From assembly GCA_027066265.1 (NCBI GenBank), contig JAMOOB010000127.1:1-48623 (forward strand): DNA of 48,623 nucleotides. The letters run 5' to 3'. Below the pieces are notes generated by a model, which was not told the DNA's origin, did not search any database, and saw only the letters and a program-made list of their open reading frames with translations. Origin of the DNA: Desulfurococcales archaeon. GTDB lineage: Archaea; Thermoproteota; Thermoprotei_A; Sulfolobales; Ignisphaeraceae. The position numbers and the translations under genes are program-made. This document shows, one piece after another, positions 9,810 through 29,480 of the stretch; within the stretch, counting starts at the first letter, position 1; each line of letters begins with the position of its first letter.

Positions 9810-10363
9810 TTATGAGCTTCAACCTCATCATAACCTACGAGCCAGGTCCACAACATCTCGACCACGTATTCAAGCAGCTCAATAGTTGCATAGGTACTTC
9901 GTACGTTGTTCTAAGAGCTAGACCCTCACTCCTCTTGCTACGTGTCGACGATCCTTACAGAGTATGGTACGAATTAAAGAAGACGCTGTACCGAACCGAA
10001 ACACCTATCCAGAGGATAATTCCCGTAGATGAGGTTGTGGATCCGTTAGTGGATCGAGTTGCTAAGAAAGCGCGTGAATATGCATTGAAGAGGATCCCCG
10101 AAAACTCTACGTATCGCGTTACACTTCATGGCAAGCTGTATAAAGTAGATCAAAGCGGAAGACTTGTGAAGGAGAGTAGTATTGAAGCGATAAAAGCTAT
10201 TGCGAATGGCATCGATAGGAAAGTCGATCTAAAGAATCCACAGTGGGTAGTGTACGTAAGGACCGTACCAGTAGGTAAATGGTTTGTTGTGGCAGCTCTA
10301 AGCGTTGCGAAAGCGATAGTGTTTAAGAATGTACGTGTTGGTGAACCTGAATCACCTCTATAG
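9806..10363 (+). CDS. THUMP-domain protein (Tan1-like RNA-binding)
   Basis: FNLIITYEPGP...VVLRARPSLLLLRV...IQRIIPVDEVV...TYRVTLHGK...VDLKNPQWVVYVRTV; overlaps the upstream gene by 4 nt. Confidence 0.75.
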   Translation: MIMSFNLIITYEPGPQHLDHVFKQLNSCIGTSYVVLRARPSLLLLRVDDPYRVWYELKKTLYRTETPIQRIIPVDEVVDPLVDRVAKKAREYALKRIPENSTYRVTLHGKLYKVDQSGRLVKESSIEAIKAIANGIDRKVDLKNPQWVVYVRTVPVGKWFVVAALSVAKAIVFKNVRVGEPESPL

Positions 10364-29339: not shown

Positions 29340-29351
29340 CGCTTATAAGCG
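29340..29351. promoter_or_regulatory. Palindromic TATA box CGCTTATAAGCG between divergent rnp4 and tRNA-Glu
   Basis: Perfect 12-bp palindrome, about 35 nt from both the rnp4 start codon (29311) and the tRNA 5' end (29381). Confidence 0.65.
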
Positions 29352-29380: not shown

Positions 29381-29480
29381 GCCGCGGTAGTATAGCCCGG
29401 TCAAGTATGCGGGCCTCTCGAGCCCGTGACACCCTGCGTGGGTGCGGGAGACCCGGGTTCAAATCCCGGCCGCGGCACCA
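29381..29480 (+). tRNA. tRNA-Glu(CTC) with 22-nt putative noncanonical intron (29429-29450), CCA encoded
   Basis: GCCGCGG...CGGGC CTCTCGA GCCCG...CCGGGTTCAAATCCCGGCCGCGGCACCA. Removing 29429-29450 leaves a normal TGAC variable loop. Confidence 0.92.

Follow-up and report, generated by a model that had tools for sequence, protein, structure and literature searches.

The window (the whole stretch of DNA analysed, 48,623 nucleotides) contains at 29381-29480 a tRNA-Glu(CTC) gene that is very probably functional and interrupted by a 22-nt protein-spliced intron at tRNA position 45/46, predicted to be cut by EndA at a relaxed HBh' motif. A noncanonical intron at this site was the core of the original prediction, and both comparative evidence and a two-subunit EndA encoded in the genome support it. 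The intron, which dozens of related thermophilic archaea share, would almost certainly be removed by the standard archaeal tRNA-splicing enzyme.

The gene lies on the forward strand, as do all features of the window described below, and was called as tRNA-Glu (ctc) by ARAGORN. The Rfam tRNA model matches 29381-29477 at 53.1 bits, the surplus bases being an insert in the variable region. The anticodon occupies 29417-29419 and a CCA is gene-encoded at 29478-29480; a TTATAA at 29343-29348, 38 nt upstream of the gene, is a possible TATA box of the tRNA promoter, judged from sequence only. Between the GCCCG of the anticodon stem and the CCGGG of the T stem lie 26 nt (TGACACCCTGCGTGGGTGCGGGAGAC), the number counted originally. 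Within them the intron, ACACCCTGCGTGGGTGCGGGAG, takes up 29429-29450 and separates a 5' exon (29381-29428, ending in the TG of bulge 1) from a 3' exon (29451-29477, A46 to A73).

Excision of 29429-29450 gives a normal 75-nt tRNA with a TGAC variable loop, as had been expected, and the joined exons are identical over their full length to the intron-free tRNA-Glu(CTC) of Ignisphaera aggregans (G006) and to that of a member of another family (G033). The same product differs from the tRNA-Glu(TTC) of its own genome at one position, the first anticodon base. Four neighbouring 22-nt excisions lead to the identical product because of a short GAC repeat. The gene could instead be a pseudogene that acquired its insertion by accident, with its work done by another CTC gene or by the TTC tRNA, and a second gene could be missed in an assembly that is 86% complete. 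However, a pattern search of this assembly found no intron-free CTC sequence, so the second intact tRNA-Glu(CTC) gene that the original prediction had named as evidence against itself did not appear. The exons are also perfect, and inserts with a covarying structure occupy the same site in 50 genomes, which leaves the pseudogene explanation hardly credible.

The folded elements first proposed for the insert were all located where they had been placed. The CCCG at 29423-29426, which also forms anticodon stem positions 40-43, pairs with the CGGG at 29445-29448, forming a central helix of 4 bp that links 5' exon and intron. This helix is flanked by two 3-nt bulges, TGA at 29427-29429 (bulge 1, predicted cut TG^A) and AGA at 29449-29451 (bulge 2, predicted cut AG^A), and encloses the intron hairpin at 29430-29444 (inner helix h'), in which CACCC (29430-29434) and GGGTG (29440-29444) are joined by the loop TGCGT. 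The exon-exon outer helix of a strict bulge-helix-bulge motif is effectively absent, with one pair, G39-C48; the motif is therefore a relaxed HBh' and not a strict hBHBh', in line with the weak outer helix noted at the outset. When the 26 nt were shuffled to estimate the chance of this bulge-helix-bulge register, it arose with 5 or more inner pairs in about 0.1-0.2% of the shuffles. Conservation among relatives is much stronger evidence for the intron than this statistic.

A BLAST search of 100 relatives showed that many of them, both of the other genus members among them, have an insert of the same type at this place. A pattern search across 216 genomes of the order detected the 45/46 intron in 51, comprising 50 tRNA-Glu(CTC) genes and one tRNA-Glu(TTC) gene; the latter (G049, locus L037, G049:C99:36910-37006) has its intron in the same motif. 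The intron-free CTC pattern was found in 93 genomes, one of which (G016) matched through a 3' fragment and not a gene. None of the 93 is among the 50 with the intron; with relatedness left out of account, the probability of such a complete lack of overlap is about 2e-15. Scanning the GTDB genome collection returned 37 stretches. Titles that give a lineage name Desulfurococcales, Desulfurococcaceae, Sulfolobales, Pyrodictiaceae, Ignisphaera or Staphylothermus, the remaining ones being labelled Thermoproteota or Thermoprotei. The tRNA-Glu genes of other families within the order have an intron in the 3' strand of the anticodon stem, near 38/39 and not at 45/46 (loci L054, L060-L062, L101-L108, L119, L131, L132 and L134).

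The 50 distinct introns at 45/46 range from 18 to 39 nt, and their variation follows the predicted structure. In the inner helix, compensatory changes occur in all 5 pairs (23 cells; 18 distinct trimmed sequences), with a covariation score of 0.375 compared with 0.010-0.089 for slid controls, and all 4 pairs of the central helix are invariant in the same 18 sequences. These sequences come from a group of 36 introns in which 3 or more inner pairs stack directly; the remaining 14 fall short of this number, and by inspection most of them can adopt the hairpin too if one extra base is bulged out. At the third position of bulge 1 the introns have A, T or G, and at the second position of bulge 2 all four bases (A, G, T and C) occur, whereas the TG preceding and the A following the intron are constant across the 50, a constancy that is partly imposed by the search pattern and that is also seen in the BLAST-derived set. 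The varying bulge bases are those that become intronic when both bulges are cut after their second base, and we place the cuts there because only these leave a constant TGAC loop in all genes.

It is improbable that the intron is present as described and is cut one or two bases away from these positions. The four equivalent registers do yield the same mature sequence; in Sulfolobus tokodaii the same kind of ambiguity affected the borders of 13 of 24 introns, and experiment led to the revision of one predicted border in that species (PMC4307357). Yet where bulge 1 reads TGT or TGG, as in some relatives, cuts after TG and before the last A of bulge 2 are needed, and only this pair of cuts leaves the TGAC loop found in the intron-free genes.

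The insert might also be retained in the mature tRNA-Glu as a long variable arm resembling that of class II tRNAs. Its hairpin is compatible with the cloverleaf, and at 37 C the normal cloverleaf with the insert hairpin is calculated to be slightly more stable than the splicing fold (-40.8 versus -37.4 kcal/mol). Against a retained arm, same-family orthologs and the tRNA-Glu(TTC) of this genome have a 4-nt loop between otherwise identical exons, the CGGG would be unpaired and yet is constant, and the length of the insert varies from 18 to 39 nt. We consider retention very improbable, and membership in class II itself is ruled out by the Glu anticodon CTC together with the 4-nt loop of the intron-free orthologs; the original prediction had dismissed a long variable arm on the first of these grounds. 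At 85 C the order of the two folds is reversed, with -8.1 kcal/mol for the splicing fold versus -6.3 kcal/mol for the cloverleaf. Such single-sequence energies are no proof and neither favour nor exclude the motif, because the unconstrained minimum of both the precursor and the local fragment is a different structure. A role of the intron as an RNA guide was set aside, given that 22 nt is very short and that the hairpin loop is conserved in neither sequence nor length.

The genome encodes the type of EndA that is able to cut relaxed motifs, and both subunits of the heterodimeric crenarchaeal enzyme anticipated by the original prediction are present. The alpha subunit matches Aeropyrum pernix EndA (E 1.8e-41), and the beta subunit matches the A. 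pernix and Pyrobaculum beta subunits more weakly (E about 1e-6). The alpha subunit has a KPR aligned to K44-P45-R46 of A. pernix EndA, residues that have been tied to cleavage, the loop lysine being linked to relaxed motifs (PMC12397907). Efficient cutting of relaxed HBh' motifs is restricted to the (alpha-beta)2 and epsilon2 EndAs (PMC6379350). RtcB is encoded by a single gene and is probably the exon ligase.

These elements suggest how the precursor may be processed. The splicing fold and the anticodon stem are mutually exclusive because the CCCG of the anticodon stem serves the central helix. In the precursor, this 3' strand of the anticodon stem would pair with CGGG in the terminal part of the intron and not with its usual partner in the stem, giving the central helix of 4 bp, flanked on either side by a 3-nt bulge, and the intron hairpin, without an outer helix. 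The two-subunit crenarchaeal EndA would then cut each bulge behind its second base, at TG^A and AG^A, and a ligase, probably RtcB, would join the exons. After ligation we infer that the anticodon stem forms and that the variable loop becomes TGAC.

In a relative (G026; locus L170, G026:C44:13500-25000), perfect 86-nt direct repeats lie 8,753 nt apart, at 1404-1489 and 10157-10242. Both repeats comprise the 3' half of tRNA-Glu(CTC) including a complete 36-nt intron at 45/46, and an archaeal integrase gene (PF16795, E 6.1e-31) is located beside the distal repeat, with about 8.7 kb enclosed. By this organization, G026 harbours an integrated element with the intron inside its putative attachment-site repeats; the intron can belong to an attachment site, because both repeats contain it. 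This agrees with a model that Sugahara et al. 2012 proposed for another tRNA, with attP transferring introns from one tRNA gene to another; a review also mentions the model (PMC8371274). It is conceivable, and in our view rather unlikely, that the 45/46 intron was spread and removed by elements using the tRNA-Glu(CTC) 3' half, with the intron in attP. If true, this would explain the patchy, all-or-none distribution of the intron, with G026 as a case in point. The idea that introns block the use of attB has been relayed in a review (PMC4090602), and we did not adopt protection from integration as the function of this intron, since the intron-bearing gene of G026 still served as an attachment site.

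Extra intron-free 3' halves of tRNA-Glu(CTC), running from the anticodon stem-loop to the CCA, were observed in several relatives at four loci (L159 and L160 in G068; L163 in G052; L164 in G021) and resemble attachment-site copies left by integrated elements. Within the window, no further 3' half was found. In G016, the intron-free 3' fragment (L169, G016:C98) and a gene with an intron near 38/39 (L108, G016:C84) are on separate contigs, and the two loci share no synteny beyond the tRNA itself that would show displacement by an element.

The tRNA-Glu(CTC) intron, located in the variable region, is a clear example of an intron with a relaxed motif that comparison supports, and it recurs at a single site in 50 of 216 species within one archaeal order. 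With their natural intron-free counterparts, these genes are well suited for testing how EndA recognizes motifs that lack an outer helix, and the same set would be useful for studying intron gain and loss. Alone, this intron changes no general view.

Archaeal introns with each of these features have been described, and the original prediction overrated the novelty of this one: introns in the variable region, introns at 45/46 and motifs that lack the outer helix were already known (PMC4307357, PMC3293823, PMC6379350). A total of 673 noncanonical introns have been counted in 217 archaeal genomes (tRNAscan-SE 2.0; PMC8450103). Both tRNA-Lys genes of the present genome have variable-region inserts, of 18 and 26 nt, that fit a 45/46 intron (L014, G000:C69:20-111; L020, G000:C359:450-549), and intron-free counterparts of the spliced tRNA-Lys sequences occur in relatives. 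In A. pernix, splicing of the variable-arm introns of tRNA-Lys (UUU and CUU) has been shown, with spliced and unspliced forms cloned (PMC4307357). The intron studied here likewise lies in the variable region and resembles that of A. pernix tRNA-Lys(CUU) also in having no exon-exon helix flanking the central helix, but it belongs to a tRNA-Glu, and its splicing is predicted whereas that in A. pernix is demonstrated. The noncanonical introns of tRNA-Glu(UUC) and tRNA-Glu(CUC) in S. tokodaii are cut in vitro by crenarchaeal EndA (PMC4307357); those are located in the D-arm, in contrast to position 45/46 here. That position is shared with the tRNA-Thr(GGU) intron of Caldiarchaeum subterraneum (PMC3293823), which differs in its tRNA, in coming from a distant archaeal lineage and in being tied to a mobile element. 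From the described relaxed HBh' motif (PMC6379350) we found no difference, the central helix of 4 bp, the bulges, the hairpin and the missing exon-exon helix being the same. The tRNA-Glu(CTC) intron is thus real but ordinary, of a known kind.
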